From: an uncultured Thermoleophilia bacterium
Lineage (GTDB): Bacteria > Actinomycetota > Thermoleophilia > UBA2241
DNA: 18,379 bases
Direction of reading: 5' to 3'
Assembly (NCBI GenBank): GCA_903921965.1
Contig: CAIXSE010000047.1
Coordinates: 1-18,379 of the forward strand
The notes under the pieces were generated by a model that saw nothing but the letters and a program-made list of their open reading frames with translations, searched no databases and had not been told where the DNA came from. Positions within the stretch are counted from its first letter, which is position 1. Each line of letters starts with the position of its first letter. Made by a program: the position numbers and the translations under genes. Positions 1,289-18,379 of this stretch are shown one piece after another.

Positions 1289-1942
1289 TCAGCCCCCGGC
1301 GAGCTCCGCCGCGCGCCGCACCGCCGCCGCCAGCACGGCCGGCGGCTGGGCGCCGCTCACCGCCAGGCGGCCGTCCAGCACGAAGGCGGGGACGGCCGTG
1401 ATGCCTGCCTCGCGGGCGGCGCGCTCCTCGGCCCGCACGGCCTCGGCGTAGTCGTTCCCGATCAGGATCTCGCGGGCACGGTCGGCGCCCAGGCCGGCTT
1501 CTCCGGCGAGCTCCACGAGCACCTCGCAGTCGCCGGTGTCGCGGCCCTCCGCCCAGCAGGCACGGAACAGGCCGTCGGCCAGCGCCTGCTGGACGGCCTC
1601 GCCGCCTTCGGCGAGCGCCGCCGCGAGGAGCCTGTGGGCGCTGAACGTGTTGGGCCGCACGCCCCCCACCGGCGGGTCCGCCATGCGCAGGCCCTCGCCG
1701 GCGGCGATGGCCAGCAGCCGCTCGTTGACCGACTCCACCACGGAGGCGTCGTACTTGCGCGCGAGGTACTCCGCGGCGTCCACGCCCTCCGCCGGGACCG
1801 TGGGGTCCAGTTCGAAGGCGCCGTACCGCCACGTCACGCCGGCCGCCTCCGGGCCCAGTCCCTCCAGTGCTTCTCGCCAGCGCGACGCGCCGACATAGCA
1901 CCACGGTCAGACGACGTCCGACCAGATCACCACCTCGGTCAC
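1289..1942 (-). CDS. FrnE-like DsbA-family thiol oxidoreductase, predicted selenoprotein (UGA = Sec12)
   Basis: Read from GTG 1942 through TGA 1909-1907, this is a 217-residue DsbA-family protein beginning VTEVVIWSDVV-U-PWCYVG. FrnE-like proteins normally have DVVCPWCY here, so the TGA falls exactly on the first cysteine of the CxxC redox site, giving U12-P-W-C15. Downstream family features are intact: FELDP near 44-48, RPNTFSAHRL near 96-105, and the cis-proline loop TAVP (Pro185). Length is normal for FrnE-like proteins. The start is fixed by AAGGAGGT four bases upstream. A hairpin suited to a bacterial SECIS begins a few bases after the TGA. There is no signal peptide, so it should act in the cytoplasm as a thiol/disulfide oxidoreductase or isomerase. 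The alternative is a nonsense mutation or sequencing error. A conventional caller would start at the GTG at 1837 and lose the active site. Selenocysteine machinery genes are not in the window. Confidence 0.85.
1866..1909 (-). promoter_or_regulatory. Putative bacterial SECIS element with its UGA codon
   Basis: On the minus strand the TGA (1909-1907) is followed by GUGCU (1901-1897) pairing with AGCAC (1871-1867), extended by two G-U wobbles. Inside is an apical GCGC-GUC-GCGC stem-loop (1890-1880). The apical loop begins with G about 21 bases after the UGA. Known bacterial SECIS elements lie directly downstream of UGA inside the coding region and carry a G at the start of the apical loop. The fold was drawn by eye and no energy was computed. 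The high GC content makes some hairpin likely by chance. Confidence 0.55.
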
Positions 1943-1946
1943 GGGG

Positions 1947-1954
1947 ACCTCCTT
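1947..1954 (-). promoter_or_regulatory. Shine-Dalgarno of the UGA-containing DsbA-family gene
   Basis: AAGGAGGT on the minus strand, a full anti-SD match, sits four bases before GTG 1942-1940. It shows that translation is meant to begin upstream of the in-frame TGA, not at the internal GTG at 1837. Confidence 0.8.
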
Positions 1955-2145: not shown

Positions 2146-3159
2146 GTGAGCCGGCCGAGTCTTCGCCGGGGCAGTCCGGCGTCCGTCCTGGGAGCAGCGC
2201 TCCTGTCAGTGTTCGCGGTGCTGGCCCTGGGGTCCGCCGCCGCGCCGGCCGCCCTGGCGTACGCCGACTACGTCCACGGCGGCATCTCACCGGTGGCCTG
2301 CGAGGTGTGCCACACCGACAACCACACCAACTGGCCGGTGGCCAGCGAGAAGTGCCTGACCTGCCACACCGGGTACGACGCACCCGACCTGCCGGTCACC
2401 TGCTGGACCTGCCACACGCCGGGCCAGGACATGAGCGGGGCGCGCGACGACGCGGCCTGCACCGCGGCGTGTCACCTGCCCGGCGGCGAGACGGTCCGCC
2501 ACACGGCGCACGACGGAGGCGGGCCCGCCTGCACGACGTGCCACCCCGTCAGCCCCACCATCAGCGACGCCGGCGGCGACCCGCACCACGTGGTGCCGGT
2601 GCCCGCAGCGCCGGTGGTCGCGGGGTTCTCGCCGGCCGGCGGGGCGCCGGGGACGGCGGTCACCGTGACGGGCACGGGTTTCACCAAGGTCACCCGCGTC
2701 ACGTTCGGCGGCACGCGAGCCTCCACGTTCACCGTGATCTCCGACACGCGGCTGGCCACCCTCGTGCCGCCCGGCGCCGAGACGGGCCCGGTGACCGTAC
2801 AGAACGCCGGCGGGACGGGCACGAGCGCGGAGAGCTTCGTCGTGCCCGGCCGGGTCACCGCCACCGTGACGCTCGCGGTCTCGCCCGCGAGCGTGCGCCG
2901 CGGGAGCAGGGTGGCGCTCACGGGCGCCGCCGGCCCGGCGTCGCTGGGCACGGCCGCCGTGGCGGTCACCGTCCAGCGCCGCGACGGCGCCCGCTGGACG
3001 GCGGTGACGACGCACTCCGTGCTCACCGCCGCCGGCGGCTCCTACGCCTGGGCGTGGCGTCCGCCGCGGGCCGGCGCGTACCGCGCCCGCGCGGGGCTCG
3101 CGGCAACGGCCGGGCACACGGCGGCGCGCTCGGCGTGGGCTGGCTTCACCGTGAGATGA
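2146..3159 (+). CDS. Secreted multihaem c-type cytochrome with IPT/TIG domain
   Basis: Start GTG 2146 follows a GGAAGGGGGAAG ribosome site and puts a signal peptide at the N terminus: basic RPSLRR, a hydrophobic stretch about residues 12-34, then AYA near 38-40. Residues 50-135 contain five haem-binding-like motifs: CEVCH (52-56), CLTCH (70-74), CWTCH (86-90), CTAACH (105-110, with three residues between the cysteines) and CTTCH (129-133). Several extra histidines could serve as distal ligands. Residues about 157-240 form an IPT/TIG immunoglobulin-like fold (FSPAGGAPGTAVTVTGTGF is its hallmark), and 245-337 look like a second beta-rich Ig-like domain. The protein is 337 residues and likely exported. 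I infer an extracytoplasmic electron-transfer protein with adhesive or scaffold domains; its partner is unknown. An upstream in-frame extension was rejected because it would bury the signal peptide. Confidence 0.82.
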   Translation: MSRPSLRRGSPASVLGAALLSVFAVLALGSAAAPAALAYADYVHGGISPVACEVCHTDNHTNWPVASEKCLTCHTGYDAPDLPVTCWTCHTPGQDMSGARDDAACTAACHLPGGETVRHTAHDGGGPACTTCHPVSPTISDAGGDPHHVVPVPAAPVVAGFSPAGGAPGTAVTVTGTGFTKVTRVTFGGTRASTFTVISDTRLATLVPPGAETGPVTVQNAGGTGTSAESFVVPGRVTATVTLAVSPASVRRGSRVALTGAAGPASLGTAAVAVTVQRRDGARWTAVTTHSVLTAAGGSYAWAWRPPRAGAYRARAGLAATAGHTAARSAWAGFTVR

Positions 3160-13671: not shown

Positions 13672-14130
13672 TCACCCCAGCGCCAGGATGCTGAAGACCA
13701 GCACGAAGATGGCCACCGTCTCGATGATGCCGATCACGGCCAGGTAGTTGCTGAAGCCCTGGCCAGTCTCGGCGAGCGCGTCGGCGCAGTGCGCGCCGGC
13801 CCGGCCCTGCGCGTAGGCCGACATGCCGATGGCCAGGCCGGCGGCGATGCCGATGCCGAGCAGGGCCCACGGGTCGTACCCGGCGTCGGCCTTGCCGGCC
13901 ATGGTGATCATCAGGATCATGCCGTAGATGGTCTGCGAGAGCGGCGCGCCGACGAAGGTGATCATCGTGAACGGCGCCGGCTTGCCCTGCGACATGAGCT
14001 TCTTCCAGGCGCCCACGGCGCCGGCCCCGCCGTAGTAGGTGCCGAGACCCGACCCGACGGCGGCCAGGGCCATGGCGGCCACGGCGCCGATGCGGCCCAT
14101 CTCGGCGGCGGCTTCAGGAGTCATCGGCAT
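13672..14130 (-). CDS. atpK: V-type ATPase membrane rotor subunit K (c-ring, four-helix form)
   Basis: A 152-residue proteolipid made of two fused helical hairpins, with four membrane segments at about 13-37, 55-78, 88-112 and 128-151. Only the second hairpin carries the ion-binding carboxylate, Glu137 in GIIETVAIF; the equivalent in the first hairpin is SQTIYG, with no acid. This is the one-carboxylate-per-four-helices arrangement of Enterococcus hirae NtpK. Ser65, Gln66, Tyr69, Gln108 (AYAQGR) and Glu137 line up with the E. hirae Na+ ligands Thr64, Gln65, Tyr68, Gln110 and Glu139 (alignment from memory), so Na+ coupling is likely. Start ATG 14130 directly follows AGAGGAAGGG; ATG 14124 is equally possible. 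Last gene of the operon, 31 bases after subunit I. Confidence 0.9.
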   Translation of the reverse strand: MPMTPEAAAEMGRIGAVAAMALAAVGSGLGTYYGGAGAVGAWKKLMSQGKPAPFTMITFVGAPLSQTIYGMILMITMAGKADAGYDPWALLGIGIAAGLAIGMSAYAQGRAGAHCADALAETGQGFSNYLAVIGIIETVAIFVLVFSILALG

Positions 14131-14161
14131 CCCTTCCTCTGGTGGTGGGTCCGCCCGGCGC

Positions 14162-15961
14162 TCACGCGGTCTCGCGGCGTCTGGCGAACGGGGCGTACAA
14201 CGTGTGGCCCTGCCAGGCAAGGCCCTTGTGGGTGGAGAACTCGAGCGTGTTGAGACGCACGGCGTGCACCAGCACGCCGAGGCCCGCGAGCACGATGTTG
14301 AGGGCGTTCGCGAAGAGCAGCAGCAGGCTCGCGGCCACGGCGGTGAACACGCTGTCGAACCCGATGGACGCGGCCATGCCGTTGAACGCCGCCAGCACCG
14401 CCACGGACGCGTAGCCGACGGCGAACAGGCGGATGTACGAGAGGATGTCCACGAAGTTGCCCACCATGGTGAGCGGCAGCATCGCGTGGTCGATCCACTC
14501 CTCCCTGATCTCGCGCGGCGTCTTCATGAACACCGCCACGAGCACGATGCCGAGGCCCAGCAGGTAGAGCAGGTACGAGGGCATGCCGCGGCCCAGCACC
14601 GCCTGGCGGGCGAGGAAGAACATGGACCACACCACGAGGAGCCAGCCGATCTGGGACGGCACGCGGTACCAGTCCCGCCGCGACACGTACGTGGCGAAGT
14701 TCCACACGTGCGCGAACGACAGGTGCACGGCGCCGATGAAGAAGCACAGGTCGATGAGGTTGTCGCGCTCGGCGAGCCACGGCACGGACAGCGACTCGAG
14801 GGCCGGCGGCAGAGTGGGGATGCCGAAGTAGCTGCCGGTGAGCACGCCCCAGACGAGCGTCGCCCCGCCCACGATGTACATCATCGCGAGCATGTGACGG
14901 GGGATCCTCCTGAAGCGCCACTGCAGGACGGCGGTGAGGGCGAGCAGCAGGCAGGCGTACCCGGCGTCGCCGACGATGATGGCGAAGAAGAGGCTGAAGA
15001 ACGGCAGGAACACCCAGCCGACGTCGGACTCCCAGTACCCCGGGTAGATGTTCAGGAAATCGAACACGGTGCGCACGGGCCGGACCCAGCGCGCCTGGTG
15101 GAGCTGGACGGGGACGTCGTCGCCCTCCTGCGGATCGGCGAAGACCACCGCCCAGCCGTGCCCGGCCGCGGCGTCCCGCACGGCGTCGCAGCGGACCGCC
15201 GGCACGTAGCCCTGCAGGGCGGCCAGCTCGGCGGTCTCCGCCATGCCCGCGCGTACCTCTTCGAGGCTCACGCGGCCGGCCGTCTCGGCCGCGTACCGCT
15301 CCACGGCGTCGCGGCCGGCGGCCAGCTCCAGCAGCCGGCCGTCGAGCGCCTCGCGTTCGGCCCGTCCTCGCTCGAGGTCGGCGCGCAGCCCGGCCGTCGA
15401 GACCGGGGGCCAGGGGACCAGCTCGTACTCGCCCCCGAGATCGGGTGGCTCCTCTGGGTGCCCGCCCACGCCGGTCAGCAGCAGGTACCTGGCGGCGTGG
15501 TCGCCGCCCAGCTCGGCCAGCGCGACGCCCTCCGGCGGCTCCAGGTGCTCGCGGGCCGGCGCGACGGCGAGGGCCGTCCACACGCCGGCGGCGTCGAGGC
15601 GGCGCACGGCCTCCGGGTCGACGTCGCCGAACGGCGCGTAGCGGGCGAGCTGCGACTCGAGCGCGGCGGCGGCCTCCTCGAGCTCGCGCCGCCGCGCCAG
15701 CACCTCGAGCACGGCGGCGACCCGATCGGGAGCGTCCTCGGCGCCGGCGTCCGGGTCCGCGCCGGCCTCTGGCCGGGCGGGCAGGGCGGCCAGCGCGCGC
15801 CGCGCGTCCGCGAGGCGCGCGCGCAGCGCGTCCAGCTCGGCGCCCTCCGGCGGCCGTACGGGGGTCACGTGCACGACGCCGAGCTCGCCGAGCGCCTCCA
15901 GCGCCTCGTCGCGCCGCGACTCCCGGCAGACCAGCGTGAGGCGCTTCATGCGCACGATCAT
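14162..15961 (-). CDS. atpI: V-type ATPase subunit I (stator membrane subunit, a-subunit homologue)
   Basis: A 599-residue protein. The N-terminal half (about 1-315) is soluble and begins MIVRMKRLTLVC, followed by DEALEALGELGVVHV, the usual start of subunit I, with a long helical region (about 40-115). The C-terminal half has about seven to eight membrane helices from about residue 325. Near the end, Arg511 in LSYIRLFAVG and Arg569 in VHAVRLNTLEF correspond to the two conserved arginines that face the rotor carboxylate. It forms the ion half-channels and holds the peripheral stalks. Length is at the short end for the family. ATG 15961 has GAGGAG about ten bases upstream; a second ATG at 15949 is possible. 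It lies 70 bases after subunit D, with no gene between. Confidence 0.92.
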   Translation of the reverse strand: MIVRMKRLTLVCRESRRDEALEALGELGVVHVTPVRPPEGAELDALRARLADARRALAALPARPEAGADPDAGAEDAPDRVAAVLEVLARRRELEEAAAALESQLARYAPFGDVDPEAVRRLDAAGVWTALAVAPAREHLEPPEGVALAELGGDHAARYLLLTGVGGHPEEPPDLGGEYELVPWPPVSTAGLRADLERGRAEREALDGRLLELAAGRDAVERYAAETAGRVSLEEVRAGMAETAELAALQGYVPAVRCDAVRDAAAGHGWAVVFADPQEGDDVPVQLHQARWVRPVRTVFDFLNIYPGYWESDVGWVFLPFFSLFFAIIVGDAGYACLLLALTAVLQWRFRRIPRHMLAMMYIVGGATLVWGVLTGSYFGIPTLPPALESLSVPWLAERDNLIDLCFFIGAVHLSFAHVWNFATYVSRRDWYRVPSQIGWLLVVWSMFFLARQAVLGRGMPSYLLYLLGLGIVLVAVFMKTPREIREEWIDHAMLPLTMVGNFVDILSYIRLFAVGYASVAVLAAFNGMAASIGFDSVFTAVAASLLLLFANALNIVLAGLGVLVHAVRLNTLEFSTHKGLAWQGHTLYAPFARRRETA

Positions 15962-16031
15962 CGCGCCGCGCTCCTCGTCCCGCCGCGCCCGCGCGGACTC
16001 GCGCCCGGCCTCCGCGCCCGCCTGCGCCGGC

Positions 16032-16646
16032 TCACTCGGCGGCGCTCCCGGTCAGCACGCTCACGGCCTTGCCCTTCGCCAGCTTGGCGCGCGCCACGGC
16101 CGCCGTCTGCGCGTCGCCCTGGGCGATGCGGATCACGCGGATGTTCTCGAGGGTCCGCGGGATCATGACCTTCTCGAACAGGTTCACGCGCTGGGCGGTG
16201 AGGCGCAGCTCCTCGGCCAGCAGGTCGCGCTGCCGCTCGAGCACGAGCTGCCCGGCGCGCAGCCGCACCAGCTCGCCGAGCGCTTCGACGGCGTCGTCGA
16301 GCCAGGCCGGCGTGGCGAAGTAGTCGATCTCCACCGGAGCGAAGCTCAGGCCGGCGAGGACGGGCACGTTCACGCCGGCCACGTTGACGACCTCGAGCCG
16401 CACGTCCACCACACGCACGTGGTCGCCCAGGTCCGGCTGCGACGGCAGGAGCCCTGCCCACGGCCGGACCAGGGCGAGGAGCTCGTCACGGCGCGCCGTG
16501 CAGGTCTGCAGCTCGGCCTCGGCGCGCCGCACCTCGCGCTGGAGCTGCTGCTTCTTGAGCTCCAGCGTGGGCAGGAACCGCTCGTACCGGCGCAGCGCCT
16601 CGCGCTGCGCCTTGAGCTCGTTCTTCGTCTTCTTGAGCTTGGCCAC
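16032..16646 (-). CDS. atpD: V-type ATPase subunit D (central rotor shaft)
   Basis: A 204-residue protein, mostly alpha-helical. A basic N terminus (AKLKKTKNELKAQREAL) leads into a long coiled-coil helix to about residue 55. A short globular middle follows, then a second long helix (about 118-165, LVLERQRDLLAEELRLTAQRVN) and the family hallmark NLFEKVMIPRTLENIRVIRI. It forms the rotating shaft linking the A3B3 head to the K ring, equivalent to gamma in F-type enzymes. Start GTG 16646 lies three bases after the subunit B stop with only a weak GGGGTGAG ribosome site, so it is probably translated by coupling to B. Confidence 0.92.
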   Translation of the reverse strand: MAKLKKTKNELKAQREALRRYERFLPTLELKKQQLQREVRRAEAELQTCTARRDELLALVRPWAGLLPSQPDLGDHVRVVDVRLEVVNVAGVNVPVLAGLSFAPVEIDYFATPAWLDDAVEALGELVRLRAGQLVLERQRDLLAEELRLTAQRVNLFEKVMIPRTLENIRVIRIAQGDAQTAAVARAKLAKGKAVSVLTGSAAE

Positions 16647-16649
16647 AGC

Positions 16650-17987
16650 TCACCCCGCGGCCGGCGCGCCTGCGGCAGCCGGCCGCGCCCCGTCCGCCTG
16701 CGGCCAGAACCGTTCGACGAGGCTGGTGGGCACGCCCGTCTCCTGCGGCGTGAAACAGTCGGCCAGGATCCGCCAGCCCAGGTCCAGCGCGTCCTCGAGC
16801 GGGATGCTCACCGCGAGGTCCATCATCCGCGCCTCGAACAGCGCGCCGTACTTCAGCAGCTTCTCGTCCCAGGTGCTCATGCGGAAGCCCATGGACTGCT
16901 TCTCCTGGCTCTCCTTGAAGCCCGCGTAGAGCTGGATCATGGTGTTCATGATCGTGCGGTGGTCGTCTCGGGTGCGGGCGTTGACCTGCTGCTTCAGGCG
17001 GCTCAGCGAGCCGAACGGCTCGATACGGCCGTTCCTCAGGTAGAACTGCCCCTCGGTGATGTAGCCGGTGTTGTCCGGGATGGGGTGGGTGACGTCGTCG
17101 CCCGGCATCGTGGTGACGGCGAGCACGGTGACGGACCCGGCGCCCTCGAAGTCCACCGCCTTCTCGTACCTGGCGGCCAGCTGGCTGTACAGGTCGCCGG
17201 GGTAGCCGCGCGTGGAGGGGATCTGCTCCATGGTGATCGCCACCTCCTTGAGGGAGTCGGCGAAGTTGGTCATGTCGGTGAGCAGCACCAGCACGCGCCT
17301 GCCCTCCAGCGCGAACCGCTCGGCCACGGCCAGGCAGGTGTCGGGCACGAGCAGGCACTCCACCACCGGGTCGGCGGCCGTGTGCACGTAGAACACGGCG
17401 CGGGAGAGAGCGCCGGCCTCCTCCAGGGTGTCGCGGAAGTACAGGTAGTCGTCGTACTTCAGGCCCATGCCGCCGAGCACGATGACGTCCACCTCCGCGT
17501 GCAGGGCGATGCGGGCCAGCAGCGGGTTGTAGGGCTCGCCCGCCACCGAGAAGATCGGCAGCTTCTGCGACTCCACGAGGCTGTTGAACACGTCGATCAT
17601 CGGGATGCCGGTGCGGATCATGGTCCGCGGGATGACGCGGCGCGCCGGGTTCACGGCCGGCCCGGCGATGGGGATGAGGTCGTCCTCGAGCAGCGGCCCG
17701 CCGTCGCGCGGCGCGCCGCCGCCGGTGAAGACGCGACCGAGCAGCGCGTCCGAGTACGGCGTGAGCGCCTGCCTGCCGATGAAGCGGATCTCGGCATCGG
17801 TGGGCACGCCCCGCGTCCCCGAGAACACCTGCATCGTGACGCTGTCGCCCTCGATGCGGATGACCTGCGCCAGGGACGAGAAGCCGGGCGCCTCGATCAC
17901 GGCCAGCTCCTGGTTGCCGACGCCGGTGGCGCGCACGGTGACGACGTTGCCGGCGATCTGCGCGATCCGCTGGTACACCTTACGCAC
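16650..17987 (-). CDS. atpB: V-type ATPase subunit B (non-catalytic head subunit)
   Basis: A 445-residue RecA-fold head subunit. Recognisable segments are an N-terminal beta barrel (1-75), [35 protein letters not shown], the [20 protein letters not shown] segment and [22 protein letters not shown]. The P-loop GxxxxGKT is absent, as expected for the non-catalytic subunit. The wording of the later motifs resembles the Borrelia/Chlamydia-type V-ATPase more than archaeal A-ATPases, judged from memory. Start GTG 17987 lies inside the end of subunit A (8-base overlap GTGCGTAA), indicating coupled translation. Confidence 0.93.
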
Positions 17988-18379
17988 CGGCCACCGCCTC
18001 TTCGAGCATGCCGGTGAGACGGCCTTCGGCGGCGGCGAAGGCCGCGTCGTCCATCGCCGCCCTGTTCCAGTCCCTGGCGGCCTGCGTGAGCGCCTGGAAG
18101 AACGCGCGGGCGGCGTCCTTGTCGGGGAAGTCCACGTCCGCCGCCAGCACCTCGTGCACGCGCCCGAACACGTGGCGCTGGCGCTCGGCCGAGGACGCCC
18201 CATCGACGGCGTCAAAGGCGTCCTGCTGCAGGTAGACGGCGTCGAGGAACTCGGCCTTGAGGTACACGACGAAGTCGGCCATGGCCGTGCCCTCCTCCTC
18301 CACGACCTTCATCATCTCCTGCACCTCGTGGCCGCGGGCCAGGACGTCGCGGGCGAGCGCCAGCTGGTCCGGCGGCACG
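17980..18379 (-). CDS. atpA: V-type ATPase catalytic subunit A, C-terminal part (5' end outside window)
   Basis: The last 132 or so residues of subunit A, running off the right edge. The segment [42 protein letters not shown] is the C-terminal helical bundle that closes subunit A. YLQQDAFD corresponds to the conserved LQQNAFD, and ASSAERQR follows as in relatives. The nucleotide-binding domain and P-loop lie outside the window. It stops at TAA 17982-17980, overlapping the start of subunit B by eight bases. Confidence 0.88.

Follow-up and report, generated by a model that had tools for sequence, protein, structure and literature searches.

Does a TGA codon that falls within the active site of an otherwise open gene terminate translation, or is it read as selenocysteine (Sec)? 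This question is raised by a gene on the minus strand of the window, by which we mean the whole stretch of 18,379 nucleotides analysed here. The first-pass annotation considered it to be a probable selenoprotein gene of the FrnE-like DsbA type. We examined its reading frame, its relatives in genomes and protein databases, the RNA hairpin behind the TGA and the Sec machinery of related genomes.

Reading frame and active-site codon

Coordinates of the relevant features are collected in Table 1. The frame reads as it had first been described: on the minus strand it opens with GTG (1942-1940) behind a Shine-Dalgarno sequence, continues through VTEVVIWSDVV to TGA (1909-1907, codon 12) and PWCYVG, and stays open until the TGA stop at 1291-1289. 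Between GTG and this terminal stop there is only one in-frame TGA, and the rest encodes a whole FrnE-type DsbA domain. The read-through product matched Pfam DSBA (4.1e-35, residues 4-208) and the solved FrnE proteins of D. radiodurans (1e-34) and SCO1869 (3e-31). From general knowledge of the fold, Pro185 is presumably the cis-proline opposite the active site. When the read-through product was aligned with FrnE homologues, a check that had been proposed at the outset, residue 12 fell on Cys22 of D. radiodurans FrnE, and the TGA does occupy the position of the first Cys of CxxC, as claimed. In the published description of the D. radiodurans protein, Cys22 is the first Cys of the CxxC at 22-25 (PMC8945050).

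The predicted protein combines a DsbA-like thioredoxin domain with UxxC and a predicted cis-Pro, as in the FrnE/DsbA family. It has the PF01323 domain and UxxC of DsbA-like selenoprotein form 1, and, as in bacterial selenoproteins, its UGA stands where Cys homologues have a redox-active Cys. By inspection, no signal peptide is apparent at the start VTEVVIWSD, and no NCBIfam match was obtained for the window protein at 1e-3.

Table 1. Features of the predicted selenoprotein gene in the window
Feature	Position	Strand	Basis
Predicted FrnE-type DsbA-like selenoprotein gene, complete	1289..1942	-	Read-through frame of 217 residues, Sec at 12; Pfam DSBA; FrnE structures
Shine-Dalgarno AAGGAGGT, 4 bases ahead of GTG 1942-1940	1947..1954	-	Sequence
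In-frame TGA, predicted Sec codon, residue 12 of U-P-W-C	1907..1909	-	Same codon TGA in L001-L005
Cys15 codon, second active-site residue	1898..1900	-	Pairs with second Cys of FrnE CPWC
SECIS-like hairpin, 9 bp stem, loop GUC (1886-1884)	1875..1895	-	Same geometry in all six clade members; frozen synonymous sites
Pro185 codon	1388..1390	-	AVP invariant across 33-sequence alignment
182-aa ORF from table 11 calling, active site absent	1289..1837	-	

The closest neighbours of the predicted selenoprotein gene are a DUF294 nucleotidyltransferase gene (215-1234), which is convergent, and a divergent gene for which Pfam gave no match. Gene neighbourhood was rejected as a clue to function: among ten ORFs sampled around the five closest loci (L001-L005, see below), eight matched differing families and two matched none, and no shared partner was found. 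Elsewhere in the window, we observed a secreted-looking protein (2169-3159, plus strand) that has no Pfam match and whose N-terminal part shows, by eye, several CxxCH-like motifs, as well as a minus-strand gene run (13672-18378) that by eye resembles a V/A-type ATPase operon; the sole gene tested in this run (13672-14220) matched ATP synthase subunit C in Pfam.

Conservation of the UGA codon and of the downstream hairpin

A genome scan with alignment of relatives found 119 relatives, of which the best 80 loci were kept. Codon 12 was TGA in 18 of these 80, TGC in 47 and TGT in 15. In the window's five nearest loci (L001-L005, identity 50.9-65.9%), all from Thermoleophilia/Actinomycetota MAGs, the codon is TGA, as it is in the window itself, giving six of six genes in what we call the window clade. 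A chance stop had been judged unlikely in the first-pass annotation, and the distribution of TGA among these loci bears this out. No Cys form of the window clade was found among the relatives in this analysis.

The protein database yielded 3359 proteins under 1e-3, and the best 120 of them were examined. Among these 120 proteins, 94 lacked the active-site motif, 25 had a CPWC-like motif and one had Trp. The first Cys form (P0084, 54% identity) is outranked by 82 proteins, of which 81 start beyond the site and have no motif and one reads Trp, and 13 more motif-less proteins rank below it. One motif-less entry, P0021, is identical to part of the L001 product except for its first residue, and its truncation can therefore be ascribed to the UGA; the other motif-less entries are known from protein sequence alone and not from DNA. 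Calling the window with table 11 also gives the truncated 182-residue annotation that had been predicted, and two database entries, P0002 and P0003, are 182-aa proteins of this sort.

Since gene callers and database entries use an internal GTG or ATG, the true product might be a short protein made from such a start, with the upstream stretch untranslated or serving as a leader. We consider this highly unlikely, because the short form would have neither CxxC nor the first strand of the fold, the internal start positions differ between database entries, and all six clade genes share the start codon and, preceding the UGA, (D/E)VV(I/L)WSD(V/I)V.

The first 64 bases from the UGA align gap-free in the window and L001-L005. 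Each of the six genes has a hairpin with an 8-9 bp stem and a 3-nt loop (GUC, GGA or GGC) starting 20 nt after the UGA, and the loop is closed by C-G in three genes, by U-G in another two and by U-A in the last; the window hairpin has weaker outer pairing to about 1906-1864. As outlined in a 2026 review, the bacterial SECIS model comprises a loop of 3-9 nt, a stem of 4-16 bp, a distance of 16-37 nt from the UGA, a G within the first two loop positions that is often followed by G or U, and an MFE at or under -7.5 (PMC13188914). All six clade genes agree with this model, although it is a weak filter that 607 of 1697 background sites of the window genes and 30 of 87 Cys loci also pass. It was passed by 16 of the 23 same-class UGA genes outside the clade and by only five of the 13 UGA genes from elsewhere, the latter low rate being perhaps a result of examining minimum-energy folds only. 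A tighter hairpin shape, set afterwards, occurred at 81 of the 5072 codon positions in the window; this gene accounts for 18 of the 81, some of which are the hairpin itself.

Codon usage was compared in alignment columns where the six genes encode the same residue (M, W and codon 12 dropped), with permutations stratified by degeneracy. For codons 13-31, a region picked after the hairpin was seen, mean pairwise codon identity was 0.83 (9 columns), compared with 0.53 later (52 columns) and 0.55 upstream (5 columns), and none of 20000 permutations reached the value of the hairpin region. All six genes use GCA for codon 25; among their 244 later Ala codons, 10 are GCA.

Folding energy was also considered as proof of a SECIS and was rejected for the window clade, as it is not discriminating in GC-rich DNA. 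The stability of the window hairpin is unexceptional for such DNA (z -0.89), and the clade mean folding z of -0.67 gave p 0.10 versus the 87 Cys loci; as a set, the other 36 UGA genes fold more stably than the 87 Cys genes (p 1.8e-6). Support for the putative SECIS comes from conservation and not from energy. An Rfam scan of the window gave no family at gathering score.

Selenocysteine machinery, reading of the codon and origin

The window contains no tRNA genes, and the machinery was searched for in G001-G005, the genomes of L001-L005. The tRNA-Sec gathering score was rejected as a presence call, since 308 of 399 genomes pass it and it is non-specific; selC was called from high full-length scores together with ARAGORN. 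In G001-G005, tRNA-Sec scores were 65.9-72.8 bits over the full model, and ARAGORN reported tRNA-Sec with anticodon tca (UCA) in all five. Both SelA and SelB were over their cut-offs in G001-G004; in G005, SelA was not found and, at a looser threshold, SelB was represented only by a C-terminal fragment near a contig start plus weaker GTPase-like matches. SelB was over its cut-off in one of three genomes with the Cys form (G008). SelD exceeded its cut-off in G001, G002 and G004, and the gene has a TGA in frame in all three; in G003 and G005 it stayed below. FdhA was UGA-coded in G002, G003 and G005 (context HCART-U-HAPT). Thus, each of the five genomes has another UGA-containing gene of a known selenoprotein family. 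In G004, selD, selA, selB, selC and the Sec-FrnE gene all lie on one 367-kb contig.

We also surveyed 399 genomes of the class of G001, presumably Thermoleophilia. A match at 1e-20 or better was present in 127 of them, 28 of which had a TGA inside, at the active site in every case. SelB at 1e-60 or better occurred in 185 of the 399 genomes. It was present in 21 of the 28 UGA genomes. The corresponding figures were 35 of the 99 other genomes that had a match (Fisher p 2.3e-4) and 164 of 371 when every other genome was counted (p 0.0026). The remaining seven UGA genomes had no strong SelB at the 1e-60 threshold; missing genes are expected in drafts of unstated completeness.

The tRNA-Sec(tca), selA and selB genes of the relatives also bear on a rival reading, in which a changed code or a suppressor tRNA places a standard amino acid, for example Trp, at the UGA. 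A Trp at the Sec site is indeed displayed by the 303-aa JGI entry P0006. We regard such a reading as very improbable, in view of the Sec machinery of the relatives, the destruction of CxxC by a Trp and the use of TGA as the ordinary stop of 11 of the 13 window genes. For the last reason a genome-wide code change was rejected. The 13 genes are table-11 ORFs, which by construction leaves the other 12 free of in-frame TGA; what counts is their length, together with family matches for eight of ten non-overlapping ORFs searched against Pfam (nine of the ten tested whole). As a separate observation, P0006, which is known as a protein only, also has Trp where its relatives end, the pattern expected from automatic calling under code 4.

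A single stop in an otherwise intact gene, known from one record, could also stem from an error in sequencing or assembly, or from a nonsense mutation that recently turned a CPWC gene into a pseudogene; this is hardly credible in the face of five more independently assembled loci with TGA at the same codon and intact flanks, and of best-ranking database proteins that mostly look truncated at this very point.

Because the UGA, the coding sequence on both sides of it and the SECIS-like hairpin are conserved, and because the machinery is present in the relatives' genomes, the reading as Sec that had been proposed as probable is supported. The window gene is almost certainly a bacterial selenoprotein gene, as judged from sequence comparison, in which UGA is read as Sec at codon 12 of a 217-residue FrnE-type DsbA-like product. 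Translation would start at GTG 1942, SelB with Sec-tRNA(UCA) would recognise the hairpin just past the UGA, and Sec would be inserted at codon 12; the resulting enzyme, with the active site Sec-Pro-Trp-Cys, would be a thiol/disulfide oxidoreductase. That the window's own host encodes SelA/SelB/SelC/SelD, as the first-pass annotation had supposed, and inserts Sec, we infer from its five closest relatives. The enzyme would probably cycle through a Sec12-Cys15 selenenylsulfide, and by analogy with FrnE it may help to reduce or isomerise disulfides in the cytoplasm during oxidative or metal stress.

A quick tree was built from 91 rows (42 UGA and 49 of the 87 Cys loci) with residue 12 masked. The window clade (SH-aLRT 100) was placed within the Cys FrnE proteins and did not join the 36 remaining UGA forms. 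Of the latter, 23 carry UPFC, UPYC or UPWC and belong to the same class; the other 13 come from MAGs of Chloroflexi, Abyssobacteria, Nitrospiraceae and deltaproteobacteria. The tree topology favours an independent Cys-to-Sec change, and a single clade of all UGA forms was not rejected (AU p 0.22). The chances appear evenly balanced that the window clade, distinct from the other UGA clades (one of them in the same class), converted Cys to Sec independently within Thermoleophilia FrnE and fixed a SECIS of its own.

Two further groups of UGA-coded DsbA-like genes were observed. On the tree, the 23 more divergent genes from the class of G001 (L157-L179) lie closer to the UGA forms of deltaproteobacterial and Nitrospiraceae MAGs than they do to the window clade. 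The 13 from other phyla are L059, L061-L065, L067-L069, L071, L073, L076 and L079.

Comparison with known systems

If this reading is correct, databases list a clade of environmental actinobacterial redox enzymes with the active site missing, since gene callers take the UGA for a stop, and selenium use in disulfide chemistry would extend to a little-cultivated class. The matched Sec and Cys FrnE clades would also be material for testing what Sec adds to a similar enzyme. A search for literature on FrnE or Thermoleophilia selenoproteins of this clade found none among the open-licence papers listed, judged by titles and abstract openings.

COG2761 is the FrnE group. As the first-pass annotation stated, DsbA-like selenoproteins had already appeared in surveys, being known since 2005, when nine Sargasso Sea sequences of COG2761 were described (PMC1088965). 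According to the relevant parts of later sources, a 2006 survey contained one DsbA-like selenoprotein in Desulfotomaculum reducens (PMC1794560), a 2016 table gives numbers 41 and 45 for DsbA-like selenoproteins (PMC5029168), and they appear under PF01323 with UxxC in reviews from 2022 and 2026 (PMC9312934, PMC13188914).

Several known systems can be set beside the window protein. The NF041057 Rcas_1661 family of thioredoxin-like (seleno)lipoproteins is likewise thioredoxin-like and includes selenoproteins; its matches to L001 (E 0.017) and to three other UGA relatives (best 1.7e-9) were weak, at 14.7 to 37.6 bits far below the curated cut-off of 190. FrnE of D. radiodurans (DR_0659; PDB 5cnw, 5cp1) and SCO1869 (3gl5) belong to the same fold family by sequence, whereas the window protein has Sec in place of Cys and, on inspection of its translation, is without the C-terminal CxxxxC pair. 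In the consulted account of D. radiodurans FrnE, the mutant is sensitive to cadmium and diamide, and the protein is proposed to be a disulfide reductase with a C-terminal CxxxxC that aids its regeneration (PMC8945050). Because the window protein has no such pair, its Sec-Cys pair would probably be recycled by a partner such as thioredoxin. DsbA-like selenoprotein form 1, going by published descriptions and not by sequence, also has Sec first in UxxC and a UGA followed by a predicted SECIS (PMC1088965, PMC13188914, PMC9312934). The kind of protein, a DsbA-like UxxC selenoprotein, is already known; what is new is a member in a clade of its own that is widely recorded in truncated form.
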